Positions 35,098 to 62,310 of a stretch of DNA of 64,000 bases are shown in pieces. Positions within the stretch are counted from its first letter, which is position 1; each line of letters opens with the position of its first letter. Source of the DNA: Cellulophaga baltica. Its GTDB lineage: Bacteria; Bacteroidota; Bacteroidia; Flavobacteriales; Flavobacteriaceae. The stretch spans positions 1 through 64,000 of the forward strand of contig NZ_JAHKQN010000035.1 of the NCBI RefSeq assembly GCF_018861125.1, written 5' to 3'. The notes beneath the pieces were generated by a model. It had not been told where the DNA came from and searched no databases. It saw only the letters and a program-made list of their open reading frames with translations. The position numbers and the translations under genes were made by a program.

Positions 35098-35192
35098 GTT
35101 TGCTAAGTTGAGTACTATTTTAATTAAGACACCAATCATTTCCTGTACTTATGGCAATAAGGCTATTAAATATGCTAAAAAGACAAGAAAAC

Positions 35193-38851: not shown

Positions 38852-40171
38852 TTATTTACCCCAGTTTTTAATTTTATATCCCCAAACAGCAAAGAATAAT
38901 ATAATTGAATAACAAGGTATTAAAATCCAATAACTGCTTGTTGCTGCACTTGCTGTTGCAACAGATTCTGCAACTCCATTGTTAATTAATTCTACTTTGT
39001 TAGCATCTACAATTCTACCGTATAATGGTGGAATAATCGCTCCACCAGAAATAGCCATAATTAATAATGCTGATGCAGTTTTAGTAAACTTACCTAAACC
39101 ATCTAATGTTAATGGCCATATTGCTGGCCAAACAAGTGCATTTGAAACACCTAAAGCTGCTACAAACATAACAGAAGTAATTCCGCTAGTAGAAAGTATA
39201 CAAACACTAAATATAATACCTAATATAGCACTGGCAATTAAAGCTGTTCTTTGTTTTATTACTTTAGGAATTAATAAGGCACCTAATAAATAAGTTGCCA
39301 CCATTGCCATTAAAGTATAGGTTGTAAAATATTTTGCTTCTTCTGAAGAGAAACCTAATGAGATACCATATGAAATAATAGTATCACCAGCAATAACCTC
39401 AGCACCAACATATACAAATAAAGCTAATACGCCAAACCACAATTGTGGGTATTGAAAAATACTTGTTTTTGCTGTTTTTACATCAGTTGTTTCTTCTTCC
39501 TCTACAGTTGCTTCAACATTTGGTAGTGGAGCTTTTAAGATTAACATACCTAAAATAAACAATACAATTGCCATCACTACATATGGTAGAAAAACACTAT
39601 CAGCCATTGCATCTAACAAAACATTTTTTTCATCAATACTTACTGTTGCTAATTTCTCATTAACCTCATCAATGCCTGAAAGCAATAATGCACCAAAAAT
39701 TATAGAACCTAATGATCCTGCAACTTTATTAGCAATACCCATTATAGCAATACGCTTTGCTGCACTCTCTATTGGGCCTAAAATAGTAATGTATGGGTTT
39801 GATGCTGTTTGTAACAAAGTCATACCAACACCTTGAATAAATATACCTGTTAAAAACACCCAGTAAGTTCTAGCTTCTGCTGCAGGTATAAAAACTAAAG
39901 CACCAACTGCCATAATTACTAACCCTAATGACATCCCTTTTTTATATCCTATTTTACTAATAATATACGATGCCGGCAAAGCCATTACCACAAATGATAT
40001 GTATGACGCTGATGCTACTAAATATGATTGCGCATCAGTAAGTTCATTTATCGTTTTCATAAACGGAATTAAAGCTCCGTTAATCCACGTCACAAAACCA
40101 AAAATAAAAAATAGTCCTGCTATTATTAAAATTGGGACTAATGTACTTTTGGGTTTTAAATTGCTCTCCAT
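38852..40171 (-). CDS. sugar:H+ symporter of the FucP/NagP type (MFS)
   Basis: A 439-aa inner-membrane transporter with twelve predicted helices. GMTLLQTASNPYITILGP and RIAIMGIANKVAGS match the GluP/NagP branch of the FucP group, which carries glucose, galactose or N-acetylglucosamine. Its place behind three GH20 genes argues for N-acetylhexosamine. Downstream-most gene of the minus-strand locus, 87 bp after a GH20 gene. Confidence 0.85.
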   Translation of the reverse strand: MESNLKPKSTLVPILIIAGLFFIFGFVTWINGALIPFMKTINELTDAQSYLVASASYISFVVMALPASYIISKIGYKKGMSLGLVIMAVGALVFIPAAEARTYWVFLTGIFIQGVGMTLLQTASNPYITILGPIESAAKRIAIMGIANKVAGSLGSIIFGALLLSGIDEVNEKLATVSIDEKNVLLDAMADSVFLPYVVMAIVLFILGMLILKAPLPNVEATVEEEETTDVKTAKTSIFQYPQLWFGVLALFVYVGAEVIAGDTIISYGISLGFSSEEAKYFTTYTLMAMVATYLLGALLIPKVIKQRTALIASAILGIIFSVCILSTSGITSVMFVAALGVSNALVWPAIWPLTLDGLGKFTKTASALLIMAISGGAIIPPLYGRIVDANKVELINNGVAESVATASAATSSYWILIPCYSIILFFAVWGYKIKNWGK

Positions 40172-40258: not shown

Positions 40259-42604
40259 TTAAAACACCACAACTTCATCTATAAATATTTTTGATGCTTT
40301 ACCTTCTTGATGGTGTTCTTCAGGAATTGGATTCACACTTTTAGCTTTCAATTTTATTGCTTTAGCTCTTCTAGGTTCAAAATCTATAACAGTTTTTATC
40401 TTGTTTCGACCCTGTGTATGGCTAATACCTAATAATTTAATGTCACTAATTTTCTCAAAATTAACACCATCCTCTGAACTACAAATCTCATAATTTTCAG
40501 GAACATAGATACCACCTATGGTAAACCTAAGACTGGTAATCTCTAGACTACTAATTTCTTGTTCTTCCGGGAAGATAATATCAACATTTAAATCTCCGTG
40601 AAATTTATTCCAATTTTTATCTCCTCTATTTAATTTTCCGTAATTTAAATCAACCAAGCCAGACATATTAGTTTCTTTTACATTGGTAGAATAATCAATA
40701 ACCATTGCACCAGCTGCTTTATGTATTGGAAAGTACTTTTCAGACACATTACTTACTTGTTCTTTTTCTTTAAACGAGCTTGCTTTTAAAATCGATGTTT
40801 CTGTTAAAATAAAAGGGTTGGTGTACTTCTTAGATTTCTGTGTTGGAATACTACCATCAGTAGTGTAATAAATATCTAAATCGTTAACTTCAGTATGTAA
40901 GGTAACATCAACATTACCCTCTTTATACCCTTCATGATCTATAACTACATTAAAAGCACTAGTCGCATAATTGACTCCTTTTTTATCTAATCGTTTATTT
41001 TGCACAATTAGCCTGTCAGTAAAACAATCCCAATTTTTAGATTTCGGCTGTGTCCAACCGTTTTCAGCAATGGCATACAATCTTGGAAAAGTCATGTATG
41101 TTAGTTGATCCCAGTTGGTAATCGATTCTGTCCATAAATTACCTTGAAGTCCTAAAATATGCTCGCCTTCTTCAGTCGTAAGGCTATCTGAAATTACTTT
41201 GTAATTGTAAGTATCTTTTAAAAAACTATACGCATATCCTAAATTAGGTTCTAAATCGTCATCACCTTGTTTTAAATCTAAATAGCAATATTTTGCTGGT
41301 GACATAATCACATCATGACCTGTTTTCGCTGCTTTAATTCCTCCTTTTTCACCTCGCCATGACATTACTGTTGCACTAGGCTCGATATCACTCTCCAGAA
41401 TTTCATCCCAACCAATCATTTTCTTATCATGAGAATTGACAATTTTCTCAACTCTATTTGTAAAATACCCCTGTAAATCATGACTACTTTCAAAATTTTT
41501 ATCTTTTATCATTTTTTTACACTTAGGATCCTTTTCCCAAGATGATGTATTACACTCATCACCACCTAAATGAATATAATCAAAAGGAAATAGGCTTGAA
41601 ACTTCATTTAGCACATCACCTATAAACTCATAGGTTTTTTCATTACTAGGGCAATAAGTATTGTTTTTATTTACACCACCAGTACCTACATAAAAAGGAC
41701 CTTCAGCACATGATAATTCCGGATAAGAAGCAATTGCCGCTAAAGAGTGGCCTGGCATATCTAGTTCAGGAATAACTTCAATATAGCGCTCTTTTGCATA
41801 AGCAACTATTTCTTTAATATCCTCTTGAGTATAAAAACCACCGTAGGTAGCTTGTTGTCCTTCTTTTTGCTTTGGCCTTCCCCACCAATTAGATGTTGTA
41901 TCGTCTTTCGCATTTCTGTTTAAACGCCACGCTCCTATTTCAGTAAGCTTAGGATATTTTTTAATTTCTACCCTCCACCCATTATCATCAGATAAATGCC
42001 AGTGAAAACGATTTAATTTAGCTTCTGCCATAAAATCGATAACCTCCTTCACTTGGTCTTTATCAAAAAAATGACGCGAGACATCTAACATATACCCTCG
42101 CCATTTAAAAGCTGGAGCATCTTTTATACTAATTACAGGAATATGCCATTCAATATTCTTTTGTATTTCTTGAGCATAAAATTCTATTGGTAGCACTTGA
42201 GCAAAACTTTGTAATGCATAGAAAAAACCAGCACCCGATGAAGCTTTAACATCAACATGAGTTTTGCCTACTATAATTTCATAACCTTCGTCTTCAATTG
42301 TATTTTCTGTTTTAAATTCAATAGTTGCTTTACTTGATTTTATACCAATACGTGGCGTCCAACCTGAGGCTTTTTTAAAATTGCTAAAAAAGTTATTAGC
42401 AATTTTTAATTGCTCATTATTTTCAACCGAGATAATGGTTTTTCTATTCAAATCGAAATAGCCATGCCCTGGAATTACTTCTGTTGGCATCGGAATTATA
42501 TCTACCTCACTCGTCTGTAAACCAGATGTACACGAAAACAATATAAAAACACTACATAAACCTAACAGGAATTTAATTACGTTGCTTTTATATAAATTTA
42601 TCAT
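40259..42604 (-). CDS. GH20 beta-N-acetylhexosaminidase, lipoprotein
   Basis: A 781-aa protein with lipobox FSC (Cys about 25), GH20b N-terminal domain (about 35-145), GH20 TIM barrel with the catalytic pair Asp-Glu in HLGGDECN (about 348-354), then a chitobiase C-terminal-type Ig domain and a discoidin-like C-terminal region with SSLEITSLRFTIGG. It removes terminal beta-linked GlcNAc or GalNAc. 12 bp after the GH92 gene in one transcript. Confidence 0.9.
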   Translation of the reverse strand: MINLYKSNVIKFLLGLCSVFILFSCTSGLQTSEVDIIPMPTEVIPGHGYFDLNRKTIISVENNEQLKIANNFFSNFKKASGWTPRIGIKSSKATIEFKTENTIEDEGYEIIVGKTHVDVKASSGAGFFYALQSFAQVLPIEFYAQEIQKNIEWHIPVISIKDAPAFKWRGYMLDVSRHFFDKDQVKEVIDFMAEAKLNRFHWHLSDDNGWRVEIKKYPKLTEIGAWRLNRNAKDDTTSNWWGRPKQKEGQQATYGGFYTQEDIKEIVAYAKERYIEVIPELDMPGHSLAAIASYPELSCAEGPFYVGTGGVNKNNTYCPSNEKTYEFIGDVLNEVSSLFPFDYIHLGGDECNTSSWEKDPKCKKMIKDKNFESSHDLQGYFTNRVEKIVNSHDKKMIGWDEILESDIEPSATVMSWRGEKGGIKAAKTGHDVIMSPAKYCYLDLKQGDDDLEPNLGYAYSFLKDTYNYKVISDSLTTEEGEHILGLQGNLWTESITNWDQLTYMTFPRLYAIAENGWTQPKSKNWDCFTDRLIVQNKRLDKKGVNYATSAFNVVIDHEGYKEGNVDVTLHTEVNDLDIYYTTDGSIPTQKSKKYTNPFILTETSILKASSFKEKEQVSNVSEKYFPIHKAAGAMVIDYSTNVKETNMSGLVDLNYGKLNRGDKNWNKFHGDLNVDIIFPEEQEISSLEITSLRFTIGGIYVPENYEICSSEDGVNFEKISDIKLLGISHTQGRNKIKTVIDFEPRRAKAIKLKAKSVNPIPEEHHQEGKASKIFIDEVVVF

Positions 42605-42616
42605 GTATGGTTTGGT

Positions 42617-44848
42617 TTAGTTTTTAAATAATTCTTTATTAGGTGTGTTGCCTAATACAAAATGTAATTCACCACCTTCAAGTATTTGTTGGTGTGTAAT
42701 TGTATCTACATTATAAATTTCACCATTTAAAATAATACTCTGAATGTAAAAATTGTCTTTCGATTGGTTTTCTGTAGTTATTTTAAACAATTTTCCATCG
42801 CCTAACTCAACAGTTGCTTCACTAACATATGGTGATGTGATACTGTATACACCATCAGCAGGATTAATTGGATAAATACCTATTGATGATAGCACCAACC
42901 ATGCAGACATTTGACCGCAATCTTCATTACCACAATAGCCATCTGGTTTAGTGGTGTATTGAGTGTTTATAATTTTACGAACCATTTCTTGGGTTTTCCA
43001 TGGTTGCCCAATAGTGTTGTATAAATACGAAACATGATGACTAGGTTCATTACCATGTGCATATTGCCCAATCATACCTGTACTAAAAATAGGCAGTTTA
43101 TCATCTTTAGCTGGGTAATATGTAAACATAGAATCTAGTTTTACCGTAAATTGTTCTTTACCTAAAGTCTCTACCAAACCATCAATATCATGTGGTACAA
43201 ACCAGAAATACTGCCAACCGTTACTTTCACAAAACTCTTTCGTATAATTTTTCGCATTAAACGGACTGCTAAATACTCCTTTATCACTTTTTGGTCTAAA
43301 AAATGTAGATGATGTATCGTATAAATTTTTCCAGTTATTTGCTCTTTTTGAAAAAGTATTTGCAATTTCTGTTTCCCCTAAATCTTTAGCCAATGTAGCT
43401 ATACACCAATCGTTATACGCATATTCTAAAGTTTTTGAAACTGACCAATTTTCATGATCGCCACCAGTTGGCACATAGCCCAATTCCATATACGTATCAA
43501 TCTGTCTTCCTTTTTCAGTTGCAGATGCTACACAAGCTTCTAATGCTTTTTTAGCGTCTAAAGGAATGCCTTTAAAATAAGCATCAACCAACACAGGAAC
43601 GGCGTGGTAACCAATCATCATATTCGTTTCATTCCCAGCTAAAGACCACACTGGCAACAAACCTGTTTCGTCATAATGTGATAAGAATGACTTCAACATA
43701 TCTTCCGTTTCACTTGGCGCAATAAGTGTATATAATGGGTGTGTTGCTCTAAAAGTATCCCAAAGTGAAAATGTGTCGTATTTATTGTATCCTTCTGCAG
43801 TATGTACTTCACCATCTGCTCCTTTATAAGCACCATCTACATCACTAAGTAATGAAGGTGTTAAGAACACATGGTACATATTGGTATAAAACAATTCTTT
43901 TTGCGCCTTAGTACCTTCAATTTTTATTTTAGAAAGATAAGATTCCCAAGTATTTGATGCCTCTTCAACTGTTTTATTAAAATCCCAGTGAGATAGTTCT
44001 TTTTCTAAATTTATACGAGCACCTTCAGTACTTGCTGAAGACATGGCTACTTTTACTTGTATCTTGTCATTATCTTCAGTTTTATAATCAGCTACAATTC
44101 TAGTAAATTGTCCATTAACCGTTAACGCATCAATAACTTCCTTTTCGTTTTTATATAATGAAGCTTTATCAAAAGGTTTTGAGAACTTCATTACAAAATA
44201 AACGCGTTGATCGTTTGCCCATCCTTTAGATTTTCTGAAGCCAGAAATTGTTTGGTTATCTTCAATCGTGATTTCCGTTTCCATTGGTTTATCCCAATTT
44301 AAACTGTATCCTAAATCTAAAATAATTTTACTTTCTTCATCTTTAGGAAATGTATATTGATGAAAACCTACACGAGAAGTCGTAGTTAATTCTGCCTTGA
44401 TACCTGAACTTAATAAATCTACTGTATAATAACCCGGACTAGCTTTTTCTTTATCATGTGAGAATTTAGAATAAGGTCTGTATCTACCCTCAGGAGTTAA
44501 ACTCTCTGTAAACTTACTATTTAAAGGCATTACCAATAAATCGTACATATCACCCGCACCAGTACCTGATAGGTGTGTATGACTAAAACCCGCAATTGTA
44601 GAATCTGGATAAAAATACCCTGCAATTCTATCCCAACCTGGCAATCCGTTATCAGGACTTAGTTGCACCATACCAAAAGGGACTACTGCACCTGGATACG
44701 TATTTCCAGGACCATCAGTACCTGTAAATGTATTTACGTAGTTGGTTAGTTTTTCATTTGAAATCACTTTCTCTTGATGTTTTTTCTCCTCATTACAAGA
44801 AACAATACTCAAGAATACTAGTACCAGTAAATAGCTAAAATATTTCAT
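42617..44848 (-). CDS. GH92 alpha-mannosidase, lipoprotein
   Basis: A 743-aa protein with lipobox VSC (Cys about 18), N-terminal beta-sandwich (YVNTFTGTDGPGNTYPGAVVP) and an (alpha/alpha)6 barrel. GNEPSHHVSYLYN (about 585) and CGNEDCGQMSAW (about 630) are family signatures; calcium-dependent removal of alpha-linked mannose is the family activity. This is the canonical sequence of the two GH92s here. 5 bp after the upstream gene. Confidence 0.9.
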   Translation of the reverse strand: MKYFSYLLVLVFLSIVSCNEEKKHQEKVISNEKLTNYVNTFTGTDGPGNTYPGAVVPFGMVQLSPDNGLPGWDRIAGYFYPDSTIAGFSHTHLSGTGAGDMYDLLVMPLNSKFTESLTPEGRYRPYSKFSHDKEKASPGYYTVDLLSSGIKAELTTTSRVGFHQYTFPKDEESKIILDLGYSLNWDKPMETEITIEDNQTISGFRKSKGWANDQRVYFVMKFSKPFDKASLYKNEKEVIDALTVNGQFTRIVADYKTEDNDKIQVKVAMSSASTEGARINLEKELSHWDFNKTVEEASNTWESYLSKIKIEGTKAQKELFYTNMYHVFLTPSLLSDVDGAYKGADGEVHTAEGYNKYDTFSLWDTFRATHPLYTLIAPSETEDMLKSFLSHYDETGLLPVWSLAGNETNMMIGYHAVPVLVDAYFKGIPLDAKKALEACVASATEKGRQIDTYMELGYVPTGGDHENWSVSKTLEYAYNDWCIATLAKDLGETEIANTFSKRANNWKNLYDTSSTFFRPKSDKGVFSSPFNAKNYTKEFCESNGWQYFWFVPHDIDGLVETLGKEQFTVKLDSMFTYYPAKDDKLPIFSTGMIGQYAHGNEPSHHVSYLYNTIGQPWKTQEMVRKIINTQYTTKPDGYCGNEDCGQMSAWLVLSSIGIYPINPADGVYSITSPYVSEATVELGDGKLFKITTENQSKDNFYIQSIILNGEIYNVDTITHQQILEGGELHFVLGNTPNKELFKN

Positions 44849-44853
44849 TAATT

Positions 44854-46500
44854 CTATCTAAGTTTATTAACTTTTATATCTGCATTATTTGCAATATGTC
44901 TCTTATAATCTTGTGTGTACAACGTTGCAATTGTGCTATATTTTTCTGCTAATTTATTATAATCTGCCCAAGCTTTATCATATGCTTTGATCCACTTTTT
45001 AACATCTTTAGTGTTTCCATTATCATCAGCATATTTCATATAGACAAGTGTTCTATATATTTTGTATAGTTTTAAACCGTACTCTGCAGAACCAATCGCA
45101 TGATTTTTAGTTTCCTCACTGTCCCAATCGATAGATTTAGCCAACTTAACTATTTGTTTCCATTTTGCAATAGACTCGTCTTTTTGAACTAAATTTCTCT
45201 TTTGTTCTAATTCACCTTTTACCACCATTGGCCAAGCAATACCTTGGTCTCTTGTCCACCATGGGTTCATATCTCTATATGTTGAATTTCTACCTCTAAC
45301 TACTGCTTCAGCAGAAAGTAAACATAGTTTTCTAAATTTAGTAACATCGTCATCTTTTAAATGTAGGCGTTCAGTTGCATATCTATTAAAAATAAATTCT
45401 TCACTCTTATCTGTATTTTGACCCCACTGTGCCATAACCCATGAATTAAGATCACACCATAATTCATCTTTTATATACGGACCTTCCCATCCGCCTCCCC
45501 GAGACCATGTCCATACACCTGCATACAATTCTGGTTTTGTATCAACAAATTCTTGAATACTATTAATTTGTTCTTCCGGCATTCTTGCATGTTCTTCAAA
45601 ACCATTAATAACACCATTAGCTATATAATTTGGGTATGCACCTTTACCTTCATATTCACGAGCAGATTGCACTTCAATAATTTGTTTATGACGCCCTTTA
45701 CCAATTACTTTACTAAAATTATTAGCTCTATGAAAATCACCTTCACAATGTTTAATACTAATAATTAAATTTTTATGTGGTTCTACACCTTCACTTACCG
45801 CCAAATAATCGTCCATATTTGTATCAAAAGCACCCCAGGTACGGAAAATAAGTTGCTTATCTCTTTTTTCGCAAATCTCTTCTTTTAAAATATTTATTAA
45901 AGGAATTATTGTTTTCTCTGGGTTTGTTTTATCATCTATTGCCCCTTTGTGGTATGGTGCATCATGTAAATATGTTTCTCCTATACGAACTACCAATCCG
46001 TCTAGATCAGGAAATTGCTCAAACATTTCATTAATTTGAGCCCTGACTAATTTTTTAGTTAGTTCATCATTAGGGTTACCAAATGTATCTTCAATCTTGT
46101 ATTTTTCGATTAAACGTTTTGGAAATAAAACCAAATCTGACATGGCGTAAATAGCCATATCTTCAGCTTTACAAGCCGCATGCATTTTTTTAATTTGCGC
46201 TGCTTTTTCATCTACCCATTTACGATCTTCCGTCCCTTTGGGTAAAATATCTTTATCTACAGACTCCCAATTAATAGCTAATGCTGGTGATTCAAAAAGA
46301 AAATAAACCTTGCCATTATAGCCCATTTCTTTTATCACCGCTGGGTCATTATATTTTGTTTTATATGGTGCTTCGCCTGGGTTGTGATGTACCATATCTA
46401 AGATTAATGGTTCAGAATTTTGAGCCAATAACCTTAACGCAAAAGCGAAAAAAAATGAAAAAAATAATAGTAATGAACGTTTTTTGGTTGTCATCCCCAT
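44854..46500 (-). CDS. secreted glycoside-hydrolase-like protein, family not identified
   Basis: A 548-aa protein with a signal peptide (MGMTTKKRSLLLFF...; an internal Met at 46494 is an alternative start; cleavage near LLAQ). Middle region looks like a TIM barrel: LVVRIGETYLHDAPYH, LIFRTWGAFDTN, WTWSRGGGWEGPY; followed by a helical region like those behind GH67/GH115 barrels (LNSWVMAQWGQNTDKSEEFI). I cannot assign a CAZy family. It begins a transcript after the terminator at 46745 and precedes a GH92 gene by 5 bp, so a role in the same glycan is likely. Confidence 0.6.
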   Translation of the reverse strand: MGMTTKKRSLLLFFSFFFAFALRLLAQNSEPLILDMVHHNPGEAPYKTKYNDPAVIKEMGYNGKVYFLFESPALAINWESVDKDILPKGTEDRKWVDEKAAQIKKMHAACKAEDMAIYAMSDLVLFPKRLIEKYKIEDTFGNPNDELTKKLVRAQINEMFEQFPDLDGLVVRIGETYLHDAPYHKGAIDDKTNPEKTIIPLINILKEEICEKRDKQLIFRTWGAFDTNMDDYLAVSEGVEPHKNLIISIKHCEGDFHRANNFSKVIGKGRHKQIIEVQSAREYEGKGAYPNYIANGVINGFEEHARMPEEQINSIQEFVDTKPELYAGVWTWSRGGGWEGPYIKDELWCDLNSWVMAQWGQNTDKSEEFIFNRYATERLHLKDDDVTKFRKLCLLSAEAVVRGRNSTYRDMNPWWTRDQGIAWPMVVKGELEQKRNLVQKDESIAKWKQIVKLAKSIDWDSEETKNHAIGSAEYGLKLYKIYRTLVYMKYADDNGNTKDVKKWIKAYDKAWADYNKLAEKYSTIATLYTQDYKRHIANNADIKVNKLR

Positions 46501-46795: not shown

Positions 46796-47719
46796 TTATT
46801 TTTCTCCCAAAGTATATTTTATGGGTACAATTGTACCGTCTTTATTGAATGACATTTTATCAAAACAAGCTGATCTTTTATGAAAAGAACCTTCATTTAC
46901 ATCACCTCTGTGATAAAAGAAATACCATTCATCTTTAAATTCAATTGCTGACGTATGATTTGGAGCATTGGGTGCATTTGGGGCTAATTCGCCTTTTAAC
47001 TCTGCGTATTGTGGCAGAGGATTATCAGCCATCCAATATTTAGTAACAGGACCAACTCTAGCGCTAAAATAGTAGATCTCATTTCTTTTGAAAATATGAA
47101 CTGCTTCGCTTACTGTTTCTTCACTTAGCCTAATCCAAGGTCCATCAAGTTCTGTCATGTTATCTTTTAATTTTGCTCCCATAATGTGCGTTCCTTTTTC
47201 TCCAATATTTACTTTATGATCGTTTCCATAAATATAGGCTTGACCGTCATCATCAACAAAAACAGTAGGGTCAAATATTGTTGTTATTTTTTCAGTAACC
47301 GCTTCTTCCCAAGGACCAATTGGTGTTTTACTTTTTGACACCCCAATATGTGTTTTATCAAATGGAAAATAAAAATAATACCAACCACCTTTATAAGCTA
47401 CATCAGGTGCATTCATTTGACCGTTTGCCCAACTATACTCTCTTGGTTTTAGAACTACTCCATGATTAATCCACGTATTTAAATCTGCAGATTCTAGAAC
47501 AACATAATCTTTCATAGTTTTATATGAAACTGCATCTTCTACATCTCTAGAACAATACACATATACTGTATCATTAAAAACTTCTGCAGCAGGATCTGCA
47601 GCATAAACAAAGCCTTTATCTTCCTTATTCAAGATCGGATTTTGTGCATTTGAGTAAATTACAAAGAATAATGAAAAAATTATTGCTATGATCGAAGGCT
47701 TTACAAACATAGTTTTCAT
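46796..47719 (-). CDS. GH43-type glycoside hydrolase
   Basis: A 307-aa protein with a signal peptide (cleavage near SNAQ) and a single five-bladed beta-propeller. Catalytic acids of GH43: Asp in AADPAAEVF (about 42), Asp in IFDPTVFVDDDG (about 147), Glu in TVSEAVHIF (about 206). Members cleave arabinose, xylose or galactose links; there is no extra domain to narrow it. 19 bp after GH20. Confidence 0.85.
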   Translation of the reverse strand: MKTMFVKPSIIAIIFSLFFVIYSNAQNPILNKEDKGFVYAADPAAEVFNDTVYVYCSRDVEDAVSYKTMKDYVVLESADLNTWINHGVVLKPREYSWANGQMNAPDVAYKGGWYYFYFPFDKTHIGVSKSKTPIGPWEEAVTEKITTIFDPTVFVDDDGQAYIYGNDHKVNIGEKGTHIMGAKLKDNMTELDGPWIRLSEETVSEAVHIFKRNEIYYFSARVGPVTKYWMADNPLPQYAELKGELAPNAPNAPNHTSAIEFKDEWYFFYHRGDVNEGSFHKRSACFDKMSFNKDGTIVPIKYTLGEK

Positions 47720-47738
47720 ATTTTATTTATATCATAAA

Positions 47739-50057
47739 TTAAAACTTAGTAACCGAGCTACTAATTGGTTGCAATTCTTCACCTTGCAATGCAAAAGAAA
47801 CATCAATCATACGAGGATTTGTACTAGGCTTGTATTGAATTGTAATTGGGTGCCACCCTTTTTTTAGTGCTACTTTTCCATATTTCTTTTTAGGTCCGTG
47901 GTAACCGCCATTATCAACGATCAACTGATCTCCAATAAATAATAAGTTTCCTCCATCAGAGCGAGTTTCAAACTCATAGATACCATCTTTTTCAGCATTG
48001 AAATACCCTGAATATGATATTGAAAAGTTTTTCTCTTCTTTGAAATCACCTAACACAATACTATCAACCTTATTAAAATTAGCTGTAGTTGGGGTTTTCA
48101 TATCTTCTACAGTTTTAAATTTCCCTTTTGAAACAAATCTTTTTAAGCCATTTTCTTTTGGTGTACTTTCTGAAGCTTTGATAAAATCTTTATGAATTAC
48201 TTTAGCCTTTTTTAAATCATTGAACTTTTCACCACGGTAAGATCTTGCTTTAATTTCAAGCGTGTCGTTAATTACTTCTGGAGCACTTACTGAAAACGGA
48301 GCTTCATATTTAAGTGATTCTCTTGTTGGTGTACTTCCGTCAAGAGTATAATAAATTTCAACATCATCTAAAGGGTAAGCCAATTCTAAATTTACTAAAG
48401 TACTGTCTACACAAGCAATATCTCTTTCTAAACCTTTGACCGCTGGTATGTAATAATACACATCTAAAACATCTAATCGATCATATTGCTTTTCAACTCT
48501 TGCATTAAATGCTTCAAAATCTCTTTCTTGAGCAACCCATCCATTTTCAGAAACGGCTAACATTCTTGGGAATGCCTGGTATTGTAATCTTTTATAACTC
48601 GGAATCCATTCTGACCAAAGGTTTGCTTGTATACCTAAAACATTGCTAGCTTCAGCTTCTGTAAAATTCTCAGGAATTGGCTCGTAATTATAAATTTTCT
48701 CTAAAGTATTTCCTTCATTAAGATAATCAAAATAGTAAGCATCAGTAGGTGTAATTACTAAATCGTTTCCATTTTCTGCTGCTTTTTTAGGTGCTTCTGG
48801 TCTCCAACCTCTCCACCACATAATTGTAGCCTCTTTAGTTAAACCTCCTTCAACGATTTCATCCCAACCCATGAATTTCTTTCCTTTCGATTTTAAAAAT
48901 TGCTCAATATCTCTATTGAAGAAAGATTGTAATTCATGCTCATCTTTAAGGTTATTTTCTTTAATTACTTTTTGACAAGATGGACAAACTTTCCACGAAT
49001 CTACATTAACCTCATCACCACCAATATGTACATATTCAGAAGGGAATAACTCAACAACTTCACTTAACACATTTTTCATAAATTCATAAGTTGTATCTTT
49101 CCCTAAACAAGCAGGGTGTGTAAAAACAGTATCCCAACCTGATTGTCCGTTACATGATAAAAAAGGATAATTATCTATTGCTGCTTTGAAGTGACCAGGC
49201 ATATCAATTTCAGGTATTACGGTAATACATCTATCATCAGCATAAGCTACAATTTCTTTTATTTGTTCTTGCGTAAAGAAACCACCGTACTTACGTTCAC
49301 CATCAATCTCTTTAAATTTAGATTGGTCAATAGTGTACAATTCATTTTCTACAGCTCTTGTATTACAAATTGTGTCTTGATTATTTGGTATTCTCCAAGC
49401 TCCTTTTTCAGTTAAAAGCGGGTATTCTTTTATTTCAATTCTCCAACCTTGATCATCTGTCAAGTGCATGTGGTAAGTGTTCATTTTGTATAAAGCCATG
49501 TGATCTAAAAAGTCTTTCACTTCATCAATTTCAAAAAAGTGACGACTAAAATCCATATGCATACCACGCCATTCAAAACGAGGTTCATCTTCAATACTAA
49601 CACTTGGTACATACCAATCTGCAGTAACCTTTTCTTTACTTTCAATAGCCACTGGCAATAATTGTCGTATGGTTTGAACAGCATTAAAAAAACCATTTTC
49701 TTCTGTAGCTGTTACCAATATTGAAGTTGGCGTAACTTCTAAAGTATAAGCACCATCTTTCAAGCCTTCTACATTTTCAAAAACAATAGCATTTTCTGTT
49801 TTTTCATTTTTTATTTGTAAATGATAACCAGCTGCAGTATTAAATAAACCTAAAAGATAGTTTACTGCTTTCTGCTGACTTTCGTCTTGCATTATCACTT
49901 TAGTATCAGATTCAATTTGAAAAGAACTTTCATTTAATTCAAAACTTACTGGTTTTGGCAATAATGAAATATCTTCTTGTTTAAAAGTTGGCTTAGGCTT
50001 TTCAGAGCATGAAGCTAAAAACAATGTGATTACTAATAAGGCTAAATAATTTTTCAT
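47739..50057 (-). CDS. GH20 beta-N-acetylhexosaminidase with C-terminal PA14 domain, lipoprotein
   Basis: A 772-aa protein: lipobox ASC (Cys 16), GH20b domain, GH20 barrel with HIGGDEVN (about 339-346), an Ig-like chitobiase C-terminal domain (about 540-600) and a PA14 domain (about 665-760, with FETRSDGGNLLFIGDQLIVD). PA14 usually binds carbohydrate, so it could keep the enzyme on its substrate. Closest in layout to enzymes on host- or algal-type glycoconjugates. 22 bp after the sulfatase gene. Confidence 0.9.
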   Translation of the reverse strand: MKNYLALLVITLFLASCSEKPKPTFKQEDISLLPKPVSFELNESSFQIESDTKVIMQDESQQKAVNYLLGLFNTAAGYHLQIKNEKTENAIVFENVEGLKDGAYTLEVTPTSILVTATEENGFFNAVQTIRQLLPVAIESKEKVTADWYVPSVSIEDEPRFEWRGMHMDFSRHFFEIDEVKDFLDHMALYKMNTYHMHLTDDQGWRIEIKEYPLLTEKGAWRIPNNQDTICNTRAVENELYTIDQSKFKEIDGERKYGGFFTQEQIKEIVAYADDRCITVIPEIDMPGHFKAAIDNYPFLSCNGQSGWDTVFTHPACLGKDTTYEFMKNVLSEVVELFPSEYVHIGGDEVNVDSWKVCPSCQKVIKENNLKDEHELQSFFNRDIEQFLKSKGKKFMGWDEIVEGGLTKEATIMWWRGWRPEAPKKAAENGNDLVITPTDAYYFDYLNEGNTLEKIYNYEPIPENFTEAEASNVLGIQANLWSEWIPSYKRLQYQAFPRMLAVSENGWVAQERDFEAFNARVEKQYDRLDVLDVYYYIPAVKGLERDIACVDSTLVNLELAYPLDDVEIYYTLDGSTPTRESLKYEAPFSVSAPEVINDTLEIKARSYRGEKFNDLKKAKVIHKDFIKASESTPKENGLKRFVSKGKFKTVEDMKTPTTANFNKVDSIVLGDFKEEKNFSISYSGYFNAEKDGIYEFETRSDGGNLLFIGDQLIVDNGGYHGPKKKYGKVALKKGWHPITIQYKPSTNPRMIDVSFALQGEELQPISSSVTKF

Positions 50058-50079
50058 TTTTTAAGGTGTTATTTTGGTG

Positions 50080-51630
50080 TTAGTCCGTTTTTGTACTTAA
50101 TTTTAAAAATTGTTCTTCGGTTGCTAAGCCCATCATATTATTTTTACGATGTTTTAAGCGCTCTACTGCTTTATCTAAAAATTCAGGATTTACATCTGTT
50201 GGTAAACCTTTAGTTTTTTTGTATTTCGGGTTATCATCCAATTTTGGGAGTGCATCTACTTTAGTTTTAAAACCATTTACAACTTCTTGTAAATCAACAT
50301 CCTTAATTAAATTATTAGTTTCATAGGGGTCACTCTCTAAATCATATAGGCGACTAATCTGCTGTAAGGTATCAACATAAACTTTGTATTTTTTATCACG
50401 CAATACCCGATCTCTAAATTGAATGGCATTTTCTAACCAACCTTCTTCATTAATATGCCCCGGTAAACCACCCATTGATAAAATAAAATCACGTCCAGTC
50501 TCTGTTTCTTTTTCAGTTAAAACCTTTGCAAATGAATGTCCATCAAGTTTAAAATCTGGCTCTTTTTCTGCACCTGCTAAATCTAAAAACGTTGGGAGCA
50601 CATCTGTAAAGTCAACTAAAACATCTGTTTCAAAATGTTTATTATCTGGTGTTTTTACTATAAATGGTGAATTAATTCCATTTTCGGTAAGATAAGCTTT
50701 ACCTCCCCTTATAAACTTTCCATTTCTTTTACCAATAATTGATGGTGAAGTACCATTATCAGTGGTTAACACTAAATATGTATTATCTGATAAGCCCGAT
50801 TTTTCTAAGTTATCAAGAATTTCACCAATAATATAGTCAGTGTAACGTACCATCGCCAAATGCTTTTCATACTTTGTTTTAGCCTCTGGCTCAAGCGGTG
50901 TGTGTACAAATGGTGAATGCGTAAGTACCATTGGGTAGTATATACAGAATGGATTTTCTTTATTGGTATTCATAAAATCAATCACGAAATCTGAAAAAAT
51001 ATCCGGCCCAAATTTACCTTCATAAGTTTTAGTACCTTCTTCAGTTATAATATAAGGATCCCAATAACGCTTATCACTTTCAGGAACTCCTGATTCGTAA
51101 CCTGTCCACATACAGAATTCATCAAAACCTGCTTTTTGCATTGCATTGGGTTCTATTCTAAAATCGTTTATTTGCCATTTACCTGCAATACAAGTTTTGT
51201 AACCTTCTTGGTGTAGTGCTTTTGCAAAACTTGGATTTTTAGCTGTGTCAAAGTTTGCTCCATGTCCCCAACGTGGTACATCATAATGGTTTACCCACCC
51301 ATTATTGTATGGGTATTGACCTGTAATTAAAGCCACACGACTAGGTGTACACTGTGGCATTGAATACACATTATTAAATTTTATACTTGTCTTTACTAAA
51401 GCATCAATATTAGGTGTATTAACTTCTGTTGCACCATAACTAGGAAACCACTCTTTACCCAAATCATCAACCATTATAAAAATAAAATTGGGTTGTATTT
51501 TTTCTTTATTTATTACCGTTGTTGATTTTTCTTTACAAGAGAAAAAACTAAACATAAGTACTGTAAAGCTTAAACACTTTACGACACTTTTATTAAAAAG
51601 ATTATTGTTTATTTTAGTTATTTTTTCCAT
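50080..51630 (-). CDS. S1-family sulfatase, lipoprotein
   Basis: A 516-aa protein from Met at 51630 (the frame is open to 51657 but the extra N-terminus has no signal logic); lipobox FSC near residue 32. Metal-binding DD in FIMVDDLGK, formylglycine motif CTPSR (about 95-99), ITGQYPYNNGW, and TTDNGTSP. Removes sulfate esters after Cys-to-formylglycine conversion, which needs a maturation enzyme not in this window. Its start overlaps the end of the upstream hydrolase gene by 13 bp. Confidence 0.85.
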   Translation of the reverse strand: MEKITKINNNLFNKSVVKCLSFTVLMFSFFSCKEKSTTVINKEKIQPNFIFIMVDDLGKEWFPSYGATEVNTPNIDALVKTSIKFNNVYSMPQCTPSRVALITGQYPYNNGWVNHYDVPRWGHGANFDTAKNPSFAKALHQEGYKTCIAGKWQINDFRIEPNAMQKAGFDEFCMWTGYESGVPESDKRYWDPYIITEEGTKTYEGKFGPDIFSDFVIDFMNTNKENPFCIYYPMVLTHSPFVHTPLEPEAKTKYEKHLAMVRYTDYIIGEILDNLEKSGLSDNTYLVLTTDNGTSPSIIGKRNGKFIRGGKAYLTENGINSPFIVKTPDNKHFETDVLVDFTDVLPTFLDLAGAEKEPDFKLDGHSFAKVLTEKETETGRDFILSMGGLPGHINEEGWLENAIQFRDRVLRDKKYKVYVDTLQQISRLYDLESDPYETNNLIKDVDLQEVVNGFKTKVDALPKLDDNPKYKKTKGLPTDVNPEFLDKAVERLKHRKNNMMGLATEEQFLKLSTKTD

Positions 51631-54083
51631 TCTAAATCTCCATTTTCTAAACTCCAATCATTACCATAATATCCAACAGCCTCAATGCCTTTTATTCCAC
51701 TTTTATAAATTGAAGTATTTAAAATCATCACGTCAGGAATATCAGTACCAGATCCAAAATATTTATTAGGTATTACAGTTTTAAACCCACTAATCCCTGT
51801 TCCTGTAACCACTGCTACCGATGCTACTTCACTATCTTTTCTTGGATACGTTAAGTAGACACCATAATTATCACCTTTTAAAATTTCACCTCCTACCTTA
51901 ATTTCGTTTCGTTTTACTTGTACCGGACTATCTTTTAACAACAACTTCCATGCACTATTGGTTGAAGCATTCCCATAAATAATAACCGAACGTTCTTTAT
52001 ATTTTTTAAGTGAAAATTCTTTATCAGAAATGATATCTATAGAACCATTGCCACGATAATAAAAAGTTTCTGCATCAAAGCGTGCTTTATTAAAAGCCCA
52101 TTTATTTTCAGTAACATTCCCTTTTGTTCCGTAAACAAAAAGCATATTATTTTTAAATGCTTCTTTAAAATTTCCGTAACGTTTTGGGTTTTTCTCAAAA
52201 GTATTTGTTGGTGCATTGGTTAAAATCCATTTCTCGTTTACTTTTTCAAACCAAGCTTCTTTTCCTTTTTTAGCTGATAAATTTTCAAATTCTGAATCAT
52301 CAATCGTAATATTTAAAGTATCAGATGTTTTTGTATGTTTTAAATCGACCTTAAACTTTCTTAGATTTTCTGTTTCAATAGAAATATTCCGAGTTTTTAA
52401 AAACTCATTTTTCTTAATTTGTTTTTCTGTACGTATATTTTGAGTTGCTTTAACTCCTGAAAATTCAAATAATTTTTCTTGCTGATAAAGCGTTACATAA
52501 CGACTTTCAGAAGAAATTCCTGGATTTGCTGTTCTAAACTCAAATGTTTTTACAACATCATTTTCAGGAATAGTATGCCATTTGAAATAATCGAAAATGG
52601 TATGAAAATCAATACCAAACCAGTGTTTCTTATCTTCATATTCTAAATATGCGAAATCAGGATGAAACCCTGCCAAATGCTTTCGCATAAAACGAGCTTG
52701 CTCTACAGGTACAGTTTCATCAGCATCACCATGTTGAATATAAACCCCGTGATGCAAATAATTTCTCGATAATTCTAAAGTGTGACTGGCATGGTTAGAA
52801 CGTGTAAACATATGATCTACAGCCAATTCATTTTCTTCCTTCTCTTTTCCTGCATACGAAAACAATGAATACCAACCCGAAATAGGTGCAATAGCCGCCC
52901 ATTTGTTAGGAAATGTTGCCCCTAAATGCCAAGTTCCATGACCACCCATAGAATGCCCTGTTAAATATGTACGTTTTGGATCTGTACCATACTTATCTTC
53001 TGCAATTTTTTGAACTTCCATAGCATCCCAACGGCCCCAGTCTTCCCAATTAAAACCATAATCTCTTCGGTTTGTCGGTGCTATTACATGGCCCCAATCT
53101 TTAGCTTTATAAGAAGCAGCTTGGTTTCTTGCTTCTACACTCGCGCCATGAACCGATAAAAACATTGCTGGTTTTTCATCCGTTTTTAAATCGCCCTCTT
53201 TAACTGAATAATACTGTACACTTCCATCTATCTTAGAAATAAATGTTCTTGAATATCTGTCTGTAGGAGTCTTTACATGATATAGAATTGAAGCTTCATC
53301 AAGAAGCTCATTTCCATTAAATAATTGAACTTTTACTCGAACTGTATCTTTCTTAGAAAATGAATCTTGAACATTATATGCCACTTTTCGCATTGCTAGT
53401 GGAACAATACTCGGTACTTTGGTTTCTATTTTTTTACCGTTTGAAACAGTTACTAATTTTAGATTTTTTAAATTACTTTTAGTAGCATTCAATAATCTTA
53501 TTGAACCAATTTTTGTATCGCTTTCTGTAGTTAAAAAATCAGGAATAGTCATATCTCTTTTTAATAAAGAAATAGGCTTTACAACAGGTAATAATTGCAT
53601 GTTTACCTGTCCACGACCTCCTTTTACCAAAAATGTATTTTCACCTTTTTTTAATTCTATAGGATGGAATGTCAAATGTTTGTTGTAAACATCACCTCCG
53701 CGAGGAACACCATTTACATAGACTTCATTATGTCCTGAAATTTCTAAAATTCGAAGCTCTTCAACTGGTGAATTATAGGTTACATATAAATAACCTCCTC
53801 TAAGTTTTCTGCTTTTAAAAACACCTTTTTCATCTGCTTCAACTTTTTCCCATTTTTCATCTTCACCATCTCTACCTACTCCAATAACATCATTTTCTAT
53901 GGGCTTGTAATTATCATCAGAAATAAAACTATAAAAAACTGGATCTGTATAAATAATAGTTCGTCTAGCTTGGTTTGTAGACCCGACCATTAATCCCTTT
54001 GTTAAAGGAATAGTATCTTGAGCCATTAAAATTACTGTTGAAAATAATGCTATTAATAAGGTTGAGAGACTTTTGGTTGTCAT
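51618..54083 (-). CDS. secreted serine hydrolase (prolyl-oligopeptidase/esterase type)
   Basis: An 821-aa protein with a signal peptide (cleavage near LMAQ), N-terminal beta-rich domain (about 25-280, with GHNEVYVNGVPRGGD as in a carbohydrate-binding sandwich), then an alpha/beta-hydrolase domain: GHSMGGHGTWHLG (Ser about 375), GDADETVP (Asp) and EDKKHWFG (His). It ends in another beta domain. Such enzymes deacylate polysaccharides. Coupled to the sulfatase by overlap; both may remove substituents before the exo-hydrolases act. Confidence 0.8.
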   Translation of the reverse strand: MTTKSLSTLLIALFSTVILMAQDTIPLTKGLMVGSTNQARRTIIYTDPVFYSFISDDNYKPIENDVIGVGRDGEDEKWEKVEADEKGVFKSRKLRGGYLYVTYNSPVEELRILEISGHNEVYVNGVPRGGDVYNKHLTFHPIELKKGENTFLVKGGRGQVNMQLLPVVKPISLLKRDMTIPDFLTTESDTKIGSIRLLNATKSNLKNLKLVTVSNGKKIETKVPSIVPLAMRKVAYNVQDSFSKKDTVRVKVQLFNGNELLDEASILYHVKTPTDRYSRTFISKIDGSVQYYSVKEGDLKTDEKPAMFLSVHGASVEARNQAASYKAKDWGHVIAPTNRRDYGFNWEDWGRWDAMEVQKIAEDKYGTDPKRTYLTGHSMGGHGTWHLGATFPNKWAAIAPISGWYSLFSYAGKEKEENELAVDHMFTRSNHASHTLELSRNYLHHGVYIQHGDADETVPVEQARFMRKHLAGFHPDFAYLEYEDKKHWFGIDFHTIFDYFKWHTIPENDVVKTFEFRTANPGISSESRYVTLYQQEKLFEFSGVKATQNIRTEKQIKKNEFLKTRNISIETENLRKFKVDLKHTKTSDTLNITIDDSEFENLSAKKGKEAWFEKVNEKWILTNAPTNTFEKNPKRYGNFKEAFKNNMLFVYGTKGNVTENKWAFNKARFDAETFYYRGNGSIDIISDKEFSLKKYKERSVIIYGNASTNSAWKLLLKDSPVQVKRNEIKVGGEILKGDNYGVYLTYPRKDSEVASVAVVTGTGISGFKTVIPNKYFGSGTDIPDVMILNTSIYKSGIKGIEAVGYYGNDWSLENGDLEWKK

Positions 54084-54091
54084 ACGACTGC

Positions 54092-55741
54092 TTAGTTAAT
54101 TAATTTTTTTTCTGTATTTATAAGTTGTTTTACAGTTTCCGGATTTGGTGTTCTGTTTGATGTTGTTTTGGCATCTCCATACCAATACACGCCTACACTA
54201 TACTCCATATCGCATTTAGTCCAGCTCCAAATTTCCATATCAAGTTGAAGTGAGGTGCCAAAAGGCATGACATCTAAAGCGCGAGTTCTTGTTTCTGTAC
54301 TATATTTTTGGGTATTTCTATCTCCAAACTCTGCTTCCGTTTTTCTATTATTTTTGTTATATTTATTAGAATTGGGTTGTGCATGGAATGGATGCTCATA
54401 AAAATCGTTACTCACCCCGCCCCAAGAATAGCCATAATAGTCTTCTGTTCCAGTTCCAAAAATTGAAGGAAAATCTTCTCCATCTACCCAAATTTTTTCA
54501 TCGCCTTCACCCCACCATTTTTTAACAGGATTCCATATCGTTAAAGCATCACCAACATATACACCTCGTCCTTTTAGTGTTACATAATTCCAGTCAGAGA
54601 ATGGTCTTGTAGAAACGGGATATTCTCCTCTCCAAGCCGCATTGAAATACATGCTGTTTTCATCCCAAGTATAATCGCCAACTTCAGCTTCTAAATTGAT
54701 CTCTATAGGATTATCTCCAAGATTAATAACAGAGATTTTTCCTATTTTTTGATATGGCATTACCCATCTGCTAGACATTGTTCCATCATTCTCAACAGTT
54801 CTGTACCAACCTTGAAAAGGATTTAAACCTATACCACTACCAAAAAAATCGCCAATAGGACTCCAAACCGTTTCTTTCCCATCGAACTCCATTTTTAAAA
54901 CTACAGATCGTGTAACCGTTGAATCTTTATAATTTCCAAGTTTTAATGACAATCCTTGAACAGCTTTTGTTCCTGAAGCCAATTCAATAGATTTTTCTTC
55001 ACCTGCGTTTAAAGATTCTGATAATGCAAATCGCTTACCTTCTGTTATCTTTTCCGGAGTTAATAAGGCTTCACCAACTTCTTTAATTAACGCATTTTCC
55101 TGTTTAAAATCTTCTAAAGTAAACGTTTTTATTTTTGTACCTTCATCATATTCACGATATGTAAATTGATAGAAAAATGGTTTTTCGGTTACTGTAATCT
55201 TACAATTTTTAGCATAAGGAATAGGAAAAAAAGATACCGCCGATCGTAACGATTTATGTGCAAAGGGAAACGGAAACAAACCAGTTCCGTTTAAAAGTCC
55301 CAACATATTTCCTTGCAACGTTGGTTCTGTTGCTCCATCTAAATATATTTTAATTATACTAGTTGTATTTGGTTTTTTTGCATTTAAAAAAGGCATCCAA
55401 GTACGTACTATAGCTCCAGCACCTTGATGATCCATTAATACCCATTCTTTTTGTCCATTAATTTCTTCGGTTCGAATAAAATTTTGGTCTTCTTCTTTAT
55501 TTTTTCTGTTAAAATCCTGATTTACAAACCAACCTACTGTATCATTTGGGGTTTTTGAAGCTCTGCTGTAACTACTTTCTTGTTTTAAGCGAAAGTTTTG
55601 TTTTGGAAATCTCGAAATTGCATCACGATCTACCATTTCATCTAATAAAGAGGTCATAGTTACAATTGTTTCTTTTTTTTCTGATTGCGTACAAGAAATT
55701 AAAAACAAACTCAACAAAAATATTAGAGTTATTTTTTTCAT
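54092..55741 (-). CDS. GH172 (DUF2961) protein, lipoprotein
   Basis: A 549-aa protein with lipobox ISC (Cys 17) and the DUF2961 double beta-sandwich: MDHQGAGAIVRTWMP (about 103-117), GLFPFPFAHKS, and GTGTEDYYGYSWGG (about 437-450) carrying acidic residues that are conserved in the family. GH172 members act on arabinofuranose or difructose anhydride; here the substrate is unknown. 9 bp before the start of the esterase gene. Confidence 0.8.
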   Translation of the reverse strand: MKKITLIFLLSLFLISCTQSEKKETIVTMTSLLDEMVDRDAISRFPKQNFRLKQESSYSRASKTPNDTVGWFVNQDFNRKNKEEDQNFIRTEEINGQKEWVLMDHQGAGAIVRTWMPFLNAKKPNTTSIIKIYLDGATEPTLQGNMLGLLNGTGLFPFPFAHKSLRSAVSFFPIPYAKNCKITVTEKPFFYQFTYREYDEGTKIKTFTLEDFKQENALIKEVGEALLTPEKITEGKRFALSESLNAGEEKSIELASGTKAVQGLSLKLGNYKDSTVTRSVVLKMEFDGKETVWSPIGDFFGSGIGLNPFQGWYRTVENDGTMSSRWVMPYQKIGKISVINLGDNPIEINLEAEVGDYTWDENSMYFNAAWRGEYPVSTRPFSDWNYVTLKGRGVYVGDALTIWNPVKKWWGEGDEKIWVDGEDFPSIFGTGTEDYYGYSWGGVSNDFYEHPFHAQPNSNKYNKNNRKTEAEFGDRNTQKYSTETRTRALDVMPFGTSLQLDMEIWSWTKCDMEYSVGVYWYGDAKTTSNRTPNPETVKQLINTEKKLIN

Positions 55742-55782
55742 ATTTAATTTATTTTAATACTGTTATAAGTTGATACCTTTTC

Positions 55783-58134
55783 TTAAATTTTAGGAGTAAC
55801 TCCCATTTCAAATTCCAAAACACCACCTTGTGTAATTTCTTTGTGCGTAATCCAATACCTATCTAAAGTTTTACCATTTAGTTTCATGGATTGAATATAA
55901 ATATTCTCTTTAGAATTGTTTTTTGCTATAATTCTGAAGGTTTTTCCTGAGTAGTAATTGTTGTCTAATTTTATTTCAACCTCATTAAATACTGGACTCG
56001 TAATTTGATATTTATTATCTCCAGGATTTATAGGGTGAATTCCAATTGATGCTAATACATACCAAGCAGACATTTGCCCGACATCTTCATTACCACACAA
56101 ACCATAGGCATCAGTTCCGTAAGCATCACTACAAATAGTACGTGTATATTTTTGAGTTAAATGCGGCACACCTGCTTCATTTAACATAAAAGGTACGTGG
56201 TGTACAGGCTCATTCGGGTGGTTGTAATAATTGTTCCAAAGAAAATCTTCAGGCGTCTTATCAAAGAAAGAAATTAATTCATTTTTAAAAGCTTCCTCAC
56301 CACCCATTAATTCTTTTAAACCATCAATATCATGTGGAACAAACCAACCCTGTTGATACGGATTACTTTCAATACACCCTTGACCATGTACTGTTTTCCC
56401 TTTCCATTCTAACCAAGTACCAGTACTATCTTTAGCTCTAAACCACTGTACTTCGTCGTTCCAGATATTCTTATAATTTTTACTTTTCTTAAAATACTGA
56501 GTTGCAATTGTATTCTTGCCTAAAGACTTAGCCATGGTAGCCAAAGCCCAATCTGAATACGCATATTCTAAAGTTTTTGAAATATGCTTATGTGAATACC
56601 CTAACTCACCATTGCCTGTATTATTTACAGTATTTAAAGAATATTGAAATGCCTTTTCAACATCATAATTACGAATTCCTTTTTGGTACGCATCATTAAT
56701 AACTGATACCGCGGGATTACCTAACATAACACCCGAGTACGAGTTTAACATTTCCCATCGTGGCAAATACTCTCTACCACTCAATTCGGCCATTTGTAAC
56801 AATGAATTTATTTCATCGTTCACCAACTCTGGATTTATTATTGTTTGTAAAGGAAATTGGGATCTAAAAACATCCCAACCACTAAAAATAGTGCGATACG
56901 TAAAATCATCTGTTTGATGTATTTTTTTATCAGCTCCAACGTAATTTCCATTTACATCAGAAAATGCGCGGGGATCTATTAACGTGTGATATAATGAGGT
57001 GTAAAAAATAGTTTTTTCATCATCTGTACCGCCCTCAACAGTTATATTTTCAATGGCTTTGCTCCAGCTATCACGAGCTTCTTGTCTTGTTTGGTCAAAA
57101 TCCCAATGGTCAATATCATGCTCTAAATTCTCTTTAGCACCTGCAACACTAACAAATGAAATTCCACTTTTCAATAAAACTTCTTCACCTTCTTTAGTGT
57201 CAAAATTTGTGTAAAATCCTAGATGCTTACCTTGCATTTCAGTTTTGTCAGTAAATATTTCTGCATTTTTAACAGCATCTTGATAATTATCCCTTCTGAT
57301 ATAACGCATTTTTCTTGGCACATCAGGAATATTGGCTTTCCAAATTCCGTAATCTTTTAATGGCTTGCTAAACTGACAGTAGAAATACACCACATAATCA
57401 GCATTACCAGCTCCAGCACCCCAACCACCACCTTCAGGCGGGCATTTCATCCAACCTTCAATAGTGTTTTCATTAACGATTTTTATATACTGTTCGGTTG
57501 ATGTACCACCTACTCTACGTGATAAATCAATTTGAATACGAGCTCTATCACTTTCAGGGTAGGTAAACTTGATAATTCCAGCTCTTGGTGCTGAAGTTAA
57601 TTCTGTTTTAACATTATAATCATCTAAAGTTACTGCATAGTACCCTGCCTCAGTAGTTTCTGTATCATGAGAAAAACGAGAACGGTAACCACTTTCTGGA
57701 TCCTCAGGAACGCCTCTATTGGTTTGTAGCTTACCAACGGTTGGTGTAACTAAAAAGTTACCCAAATCACCAAACCAACCAATACCACTCATATGCGTAA
57801 AACTGAACCCTTCTAAAGTTGGGTGTGCATAAGAATAACCAGGTCCATTATCACCACCTGTAAAAGTATCAGGACTTAATTGTACCAAACCAAAAGGTGT
57901 TGCTGACCCTGGAAATGTTTTTCCGAAACCGTGGGCATCTTTTGATTTTTTACCATAGGTAATTGCACCAATAATAGGGTCAATATAATCTACAGGTTGT
58001 TTTCCCTCTTTTACAGCAACTACTGTCTCTGCAACATCTTCAGTATTTTTCTTTGAAGATGAACACGAAACAGCAACTAATACACTTAGTAGTAAGCAAT
58101 AATAAACTGGTAATTTTATTTTTTCAATTCTCAT
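55783..58134 (-). CDS. GH92 alpha-mannosidase-like protein, lipoprotein, divergent
   Basis: A 783-aa protein: lipobox VSC (Cys 24), N-terminal sandwich (PFGLVQLSPDTFTGGDNGPGY) and the GH92 barrel. The family motif reads HPNEPVHHVPFML instead of GNEPSHHVSYLY in the other copy, and CGNEDVGQMSAWYVL is normal. The loop with several unusual Trp and Gly residues (GGGWGAGAGN) differs from its paralogue, suggesting another linkage or mannose context. 27 bp after the sulfatase gene. Confidence 0.85.
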   Translation of the reverse strand: MRIEKIKLPVYYCLLLSVLVAVSCSSSKKNTEDVAETVVAVKEGKQPVDYIDPIIGAITYGKKSKDAHGFGKTFPGSATPFGLVQLSPDTFTGGDNGPGYSYAHPTLEGFSFTHMSGIGWFGDLGNFLVTPTVGKLQTNRGVPEDPESGYRSRFSHDTETTEAGYYAVTLDDYNVKTELTSAPRAGIIKFTYPESDRARIQIDLSRRVGGTSTEQYIKIVNENTIEGWMKCPPEGGGWGAGAGNADYVVYFYCQFSKPLKDYGIWKANIPDVPRKMRYIRRDNYQDAVKNAEIFTDKTEMQGKHLGFYTNFDTKEGEEVLLKSGISFVSVAGAKENLEHDIDHWDFDQTRQEARDSWSKAIENITVEGGTDDEKTIFYTSLYHTLIDPRAFSDVNGNYVGADKKIHQTDDFTYRTIFSGWDVFRSQFPLQTIINPELVNDEINSLLQMAELSGREYLPRWEMLNSYSGVMLGNPAVSVINDAYQKGIRNYDVEKAFQYSLNTVNNTGNGELGYSHKHISKTLEYAYSDWALATMAKSLGKNTIATQYFKKSKNYKNIWNDEVQWFRAKDSTGTWLEWKGKTVHGQGCIESNPYQQGWFVPHDIDGLKELMGGEEAFKNELISFFDKTPEDFLWNNYYNHPNEPVHHVPFMLNEAGVPHLTQKYTRTICSDAYGTDAYGLCGNEDVGQMSAWYVLASIGIHPINPGDNKYQITSPVFNEVEIKLDNNYYSGKTFRIIAKNNSKENIYIQSMKLNGKTLDRYWITHKEITQGGVLEFEMGVTPKI

Positions 58135-58160
58135 ATTTTACGCTGTAATCTTAAATAATC

Positions 58161-61507: not shown

Positions 61508-61509
61508 AA

Positions 61510-62298: not shown

Positions 62299-62310
62299 CT
62301 TTATGATATT

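Follow-up and report, generated by a model that had tools for sequence, protein, structure and literature searches.

A Secreted Cellulophaga baltica Protein Distantly Related to GH67 and GH138 as a Putative exo-α-Uronidase

In marine bacteria, the breakdown of sulfated fucans, mannans, and algal glycoproteins relies on PULs, and several genes of these PULs encode enzymes that lack an assigned role. One such gene lies in the window analyzed here, a stretch of 64,000 nucleotides of Cellulophaga baltica DNA, and the question is what its product, protein X, does beside the GH92 and GH20 enzymes encoded next to it. The original prediction had placed a secreted 548-aa protein at 44854-46500 without giving a strand. 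The ORF is intact and runs along the minus strand from 46500 to 44854 (548 codons). Its N-terminus, MGMTTKKRSLLLFFSFFFAFALRLLAQN, looks like a Sec/SPI-type signal peptide without a lipobox Cys (residues 1-27, 46420-46500, minus strand); this judgment, made by eye, agrees with secretion. We consider X a real gene because homologs of near full length and 61-89% identity are kept in 28 other loci across several phyla, as found in a scan of ~85,000 genomes.

An AlphaFold2 model of X was built on alignment A1 (25 sequences) and reached a pLDDT of 80 and a pTM of 0.82, with the active-site loops as its least certain parts (low pLDDT). Eight strands (residues 32-38, 63-66, 116-122, 168-172, 216-220, 245-249, 272-278, and 326-334) alternate with helices to form a (β/α)8 barrel at residues 30-335 (45496-46413, minus strand). 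A helical domain follows at residues 347-548 (44857-45462, minus strand). Both the TIM-barrel-like architecture and the GH67-like helical tail proposed from sequence motifs were therefore present in the model. A Foldseek search against the PDB, which had been suggested as a check of the barrel, returned GH67 as the best match (E 4e-11), followed by GH138 BPa0997, GH20-like enzymes, GH84, and GH89. Structural alignment with VIA-align 2 gave Z 19.8 for GH67 (3.8 Å over 404 residues), Z 18.0 for GH138 (4.2 Å over 454 residues), Z about 18 for GH84, yet at more than 8 Å, and Z 16.8 for GH115. The proposed likeness to GH67 and GH115 stood for GH67 as the best match; GH115 was weaker and is reported not to share the GH67 active-site residues (PMC3879575). 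GH99 was not among the Foldseek matches listed, which excludes nothing. GH195, a new mannanase family from a related PUL, was set aside as a candidate because it is described as GH99-related (PMC13063451).

At the sequence level, X matched no Pfam family above threshold, nothing in NCBIfam, and nothing in a single-sequence search of PDB sequences. The GH67M family (PF07488) matched below threshold at residues 242-301 (E 0.0032), scoring 17 against a gathering cutoff of 23.5, and a homolog with 70% identity to X just passed that cutoff at 25.6. PF03648 had no match in X. Relatives of X fall into three tiers, namely, the X clade, sub2 (34-39% identity), and the remote tier rem (19-22%). A profile merged from all three was compared with the GH67 profile by hhalign in local mode and gave 97% probability and E 1.1e-10 over 308 columns (X residues 54-411) at about 17% identity, whereas control profiles of GH20, GH29, and GH31 gave probabilities of 1.4%, 1.7%, and 8.2%. 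Against all PDB sequences, the three-tier profile A2 ranked GH67 first (E 0.0033) and GH138 second; this GH138 match is weak (E 0.007) and confined to residues 71-157 and C-terminal stretches. The broader A2 was required, as the 25-sequence profile A1 returned only chance matches from the PDB. The original view that no family could be named holds for Pfam and NCBIfam thresholds and gives way to measurable distant homology with GH67 and a local sequence match with GH138. Judged by sequence, the X family appears new relative to Pfam, NCBIfam, and the PDB, and a CAZy number may already exist for it.

The distant homology extends to the active site. In the profile alignment, R220 (45841-45843), K250 and D255 of the strand-6 motif (45736-45753), and E276 and E282 of the strand-7 motif (45655-45675, all on the minus strand) are identical to the GH67 active-site columns R325, K360, D365, E386, and E392, where the last two follow G. 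stearothermophilus numbering and E392 is E393 in C. japonicus. R172 of the strand-4 motif R172-I-G-E175 (45976-45987, minus strand) stands in for the GH67 lysine K288. Five of the seven chosen sites were identical against a background of 51 in 307 columns (hypergeometric p 0.0017, with the sites picked knowing the alignment). We take GH67 K288, R325, and K360 to bind the carboxylate, D365 and E393 to form the base pair, and the strand-4 Glu (E292/E285) to be the catalytic acid; for GH138, E294 and E361 are presumably the catalytic residues. Residue numbering was checked on the sequences and titles of PDB mutants (1h41, E292A; 1k9e, E285N; 1mqr, E386Q; 6hzg, E361S).

The catalytic acid needed a closer look at strand 4. 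GH67 E292 lies opposite Y177 of X in the profile alignment, with E175 nearby, beside a loop gap. The GH138 strand-4 motif aligns better than that of GH67 (GLVVRIGE in X, GLLVCLGE in GH138) and brings E175 into register with GH138 residue 294. We assign E175 as the putative acid because of this register and its invariance. The acidic residues of RIGETYLHD had been singled out for mutation, and the motif does hold E175, which by sequence comparison is most likely the catalytic acid. The closeness of this motif to GH138, together with a fold match that spans more residues with GH138 than with GH67, would also suit an enzyme with GH138-like residues that is a retaining glycosidase or performs another reaction, such as that of a lyase or phosphorylase, rather than GH67-like inversion. 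However, the strand-6 and strand-7 motifs are in register with GH67, and we regard this alternative as quite improbable.

Conservation was computed across the three clades, down to 19% identity, where the invariant charged residues are D122, R172, E175, D180, R220, K250, D255, R258, and E276; E282 is kept in at least 90% of the superfamily. This set, E282 included, was derived without reference to GH67 and covers the GH67-matched sites, and most of the charged positions that the superfamily conserves are matched to GH67 or GH138. In X, the roles of acid, base pair, and carboxylate binding are assigned by analogy with these two families and are putative. In GH115, the active-site residues are reportedly not conserved with GH67, and since this family acts on the same substrate with all of them changed, residue transfer on this fold is generally unsafe (PMC3879575).

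One branch of the superfamily departs from this pattern. Members of a Bacteroidota sub2 side branch (L030, 1447-2976; L060, 1426-3132; L064, 11860-13611) have NQAG where others have REYEG and lack the E282 equivalent, which counts against a uronidase assignment. The loss could also be read as a sign that X is a non-catalytic binding or scaffold protein, a reading we consider very improbable, as every putative catalytic residue is invariant in the X clade across several phyla. The sub2 homolog of L030 carries an in-frame TGA close to its N-terminus (about 2976-3108); it may be a pseudogene or start later, or the TGA may be a sequencing error. In L064, which comes from a Persicobacter plasmid, the gene adjoins porphyranase, GH2-like, and sulfatase genes, and because of these neighbors its substrate probably differs. 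The presence of a superfamily member in a porphyran cluster, where uronic acid is not expected, also counts against the uronidase assignment.

Homologs of X occur in Flavobacteriaceae, Marinifilaceae, Kiritimatiellota, Verrucomicrobiota, and one Lentisphaeria bin, and a Persicobacter plasmid carries an X copy with 64% identity. Two loci (L024 and L025) hold identical X sequences in MAGs labeled Kiritimatiellota and Lentisphaeria, probably a single organism binned twice. The distribution is patchy. Besides its own genome, X had matches in 1 of 395 genomes sampled from the phylum and 1 of 296 sampled from the order, both of them cousins with 36-39% identity, and in the phylum to which locus L020 belongs, 48 of 288 sampled genomes contained some superfamily member. 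A search of viral contigs and phages found no X relatives. The sub2 clade is hosted by Bacteroidota and Verrucomicrobiota-type genomes. Maximum-likelihood phylogeny recovered sub2 and rem each as one supported clade, with only shallow separation among X sequences from different phyla. This shallow branching and the 64-69% cross-phylum identity suggest horizontal movement of X. The rem relatives (L061, L062, and L085-L091) are Verrucomicrobiota-type proteins of about 575-630 aa with 19-22% identity that are unannotated in Pfam and retain the X active-site motifs. That of L062 has no obvious signal peptide by eye, and the rem relatives are perhaps cytoplasmic.

The genomic context of X points to its possible substrates. 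The original prediction had X heading a transcript with GH92 and GH20 genes, and the sequence agrees. A strong intrinsic-terminator-like hairpin of 20 pairs (46789-46743, minus strand) lies 3' of the GH43 stop, within the 295-nt gap between GH43 and X, and parts X from the upstream genes. X is followed in the same direction, with gaps of 5, 12, and 87 nt, by a GH92 exo-α-mannosidase family gene (42617-44848), a GH20 β-hexosaminidase family gene (40259-42604), and an MFS sugar transporter (38852-40171, all on the minus strand) whose best NCBIfam match, the N-acetylglucosamine transporter NagP, was under its cutoff. The Bacteroidetes promoter pattern occurred at chance frequency with none near X, σ70-like sites were fewer than expected, and no Rfam match was found near X.

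This unit sits in a sulfatase-rich PUL of roughly 60 kb. Upstream of the hairpin, the minus strand carries GH43, GH20, sulfatase, esterase, DUF2961, GH92, sulfatase, GH20, GDSL, and GH30 genes (46796-63747), and same-strand genes reach about 98.4 kb of the contig. Up to that point, the PUL includes two GH3, GH95, GH29, two GH30, four GH92, and GH130 genes, an Asparaginase_2-family protein, DUF5703, DUF2961, and about nine sulfatases, two of them Pfam-confirmed and the others assigned by eye from their first residues. Two SusC/D-like pairs, also identified by eye, lie beyond 98.4 kb on the opposite strand. The Asparaginase_2-family protein (contig C10 89984-90988, L121 7984-8988, minus strand) scores far under the β-aspartyl-peptidase cutoff and could be a glycosylasparaginase freeing N-glycan GlcNAc from Asn. 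An 821-aa esterase-like protein of no clear family (51618-54083) and the DUF2961 protein (54092-55741, both on the minus strand) recur beside X in 9 and 8 of the 28 loci, respectively, and are additional unassigned components of this degradation system. A chondroitinase-B family lyase (32791-35139, minus strand, Pfam E 8e-199) adjoins the GH92 PUL but is separate from it.

The adjacency of X and GH92 is repeated in 10 other loci, and other X loci lie in fucan-type GH95/GH31/sulfatase clusters. A fucosidase-type gene (GH29, GH95, or GH141-like) was present in 24 of the 28 loci and a sulfatase in 19. The theme common to X loci is sulfated, fucose-containing glycans; in C. baltica, the combination of GH130, GH20, GH92, and Asparaginase_2 genes suggests glycoprotein N-glycans as the target. 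Some fucoidans carry α-1,2-GlcA branches on fucose.

These neighbors bear on what the basic pocket of R172, R220, and K250 would hold. The frequent sulfatases, the sub2 relative beside a porphyranase, and a mannose-6-sulfate-releasing GH92 known from a related marine PUL (PMC13063451) would fit a C6 sulfate. The fold and catalytic residues would then be unchanged, and the enzyme would act in exo fashion to release a sugar sulfated at C6, for example mannose-6-sulfate, HexNAc-6-sulfate, or L-galactose-6-sulfate. We consider this rather unlikely, as the three basic residues match the GH67 carboxylate binders and both nearest families, GH67 and GH138, act on uronic acids. Drift from uronate specificity to a neutral sugar, such as fucose, galactose, or mannose, would make X an α-glycosidase of another kind. 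In its favor, the identity to GH67 is only about 17% and most X loci lie among fucosidase genes, but these loci already have fucosidases that belong to known families, and the invariance of R172, R220, and K250 in all three clades fits anion binding; this drift seems unlikely.

We moderately favor a reading of X as an exo-glycosidase from a family beyond Pfam and NCBIfam within a GH67 and GH138 superfamily, most likely an α-uronidase. It would most likely act in the periplasm by an inverting mechanism, with E175 protonating the glycosidic oxygen, D255 and/or E282 activating water, and R172, R220, and K250 gripping the terminal sugar by its C6 acidic group, which is most likely a uronate carboxylate. 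Removal of this α-linked acidic sugar would open mannose, HexNAc, and fucose to attack by the GH92 and GH20 enzymes of the same transcript and by the neighboring fucosidases and sulfatases. By analogy, X probably clips an acidic cap off sulfated, fucose- and mannose-rich algal glycans. The original candidate thus holds in sharpened form, probably as a distant, separate GH67/GH138 relative with exo-α-uronidase function. A more tentative proposal, possible but short of our expectation, is that X founds a GH family joining GH67 and GH138 as a uronidase superfamily and uncaps fucose/mannose-containing sulfated algal glycans or N-glycans. If true, X would provide a sequence link between GH67 and GH138, which have fold and substrate class in common. 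With 61-89% identity kept from phylum to phylum and a uronidase-like active site that can be read, the family makes this missing step directly testable.

Among known systems, the GH67 α-glucuronidases (CjGlcA67A, PDB 1gqi/1h41; G. stearothermophilus AguA, 1k9d/1mqp) resemble X in the barrel with a C-terminal helical domain, in profile homology, and in identity at the R325, K360, D365, E386/387, and E392/393 columns. Unlike them, X lacks the N-terminal domain of roughly 150 residues. Its barrel strand 1 begins at residue 32, after the signal peptide, and its structural alignment begins at GH67 residue about 142-152. The strand-4 motif also differs (RIGETYLHD in X, KANSEGQPGP in GH67), X loci are not xylan loci, and the X-bearing genome has no GH67 gene. 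The GH138 α-galacturonidase BPa0997 (PDB 6hze/6hzf/6hzg) shares the fold, Glu294 in register with E175, and the second rank among PDB sequences, but it is a larger multidomain protein acting on rhamnogalacturonan II. The GH115 α-glucuronidase (4c90) shares the general barrel and helical arrangement, but has no sequence match with X and has D206, D332, and E375 as its active-site residues (BoAgu115A numbering). Sulfated mannan or glucuronomannan is the substrate assigned to published GH92/sulfatase PULs (PMC6298971, PMC9723552). In the parts of the PUL reports at hand, no X-like enzyme is mentioned and the α-uronic-acid uncapping step has no assigned enzyme (PMC6298971, PMC9723552, PMC13063451). 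As described there, these marine Flavobacteriia PULs have several GH92, GH3, many sulfatases, and SusC/D pairs in common with the X PUL, which adds three GH20 genes, GH130, an Asparaginase_2-family gene, GH29, GH95, and X itself.
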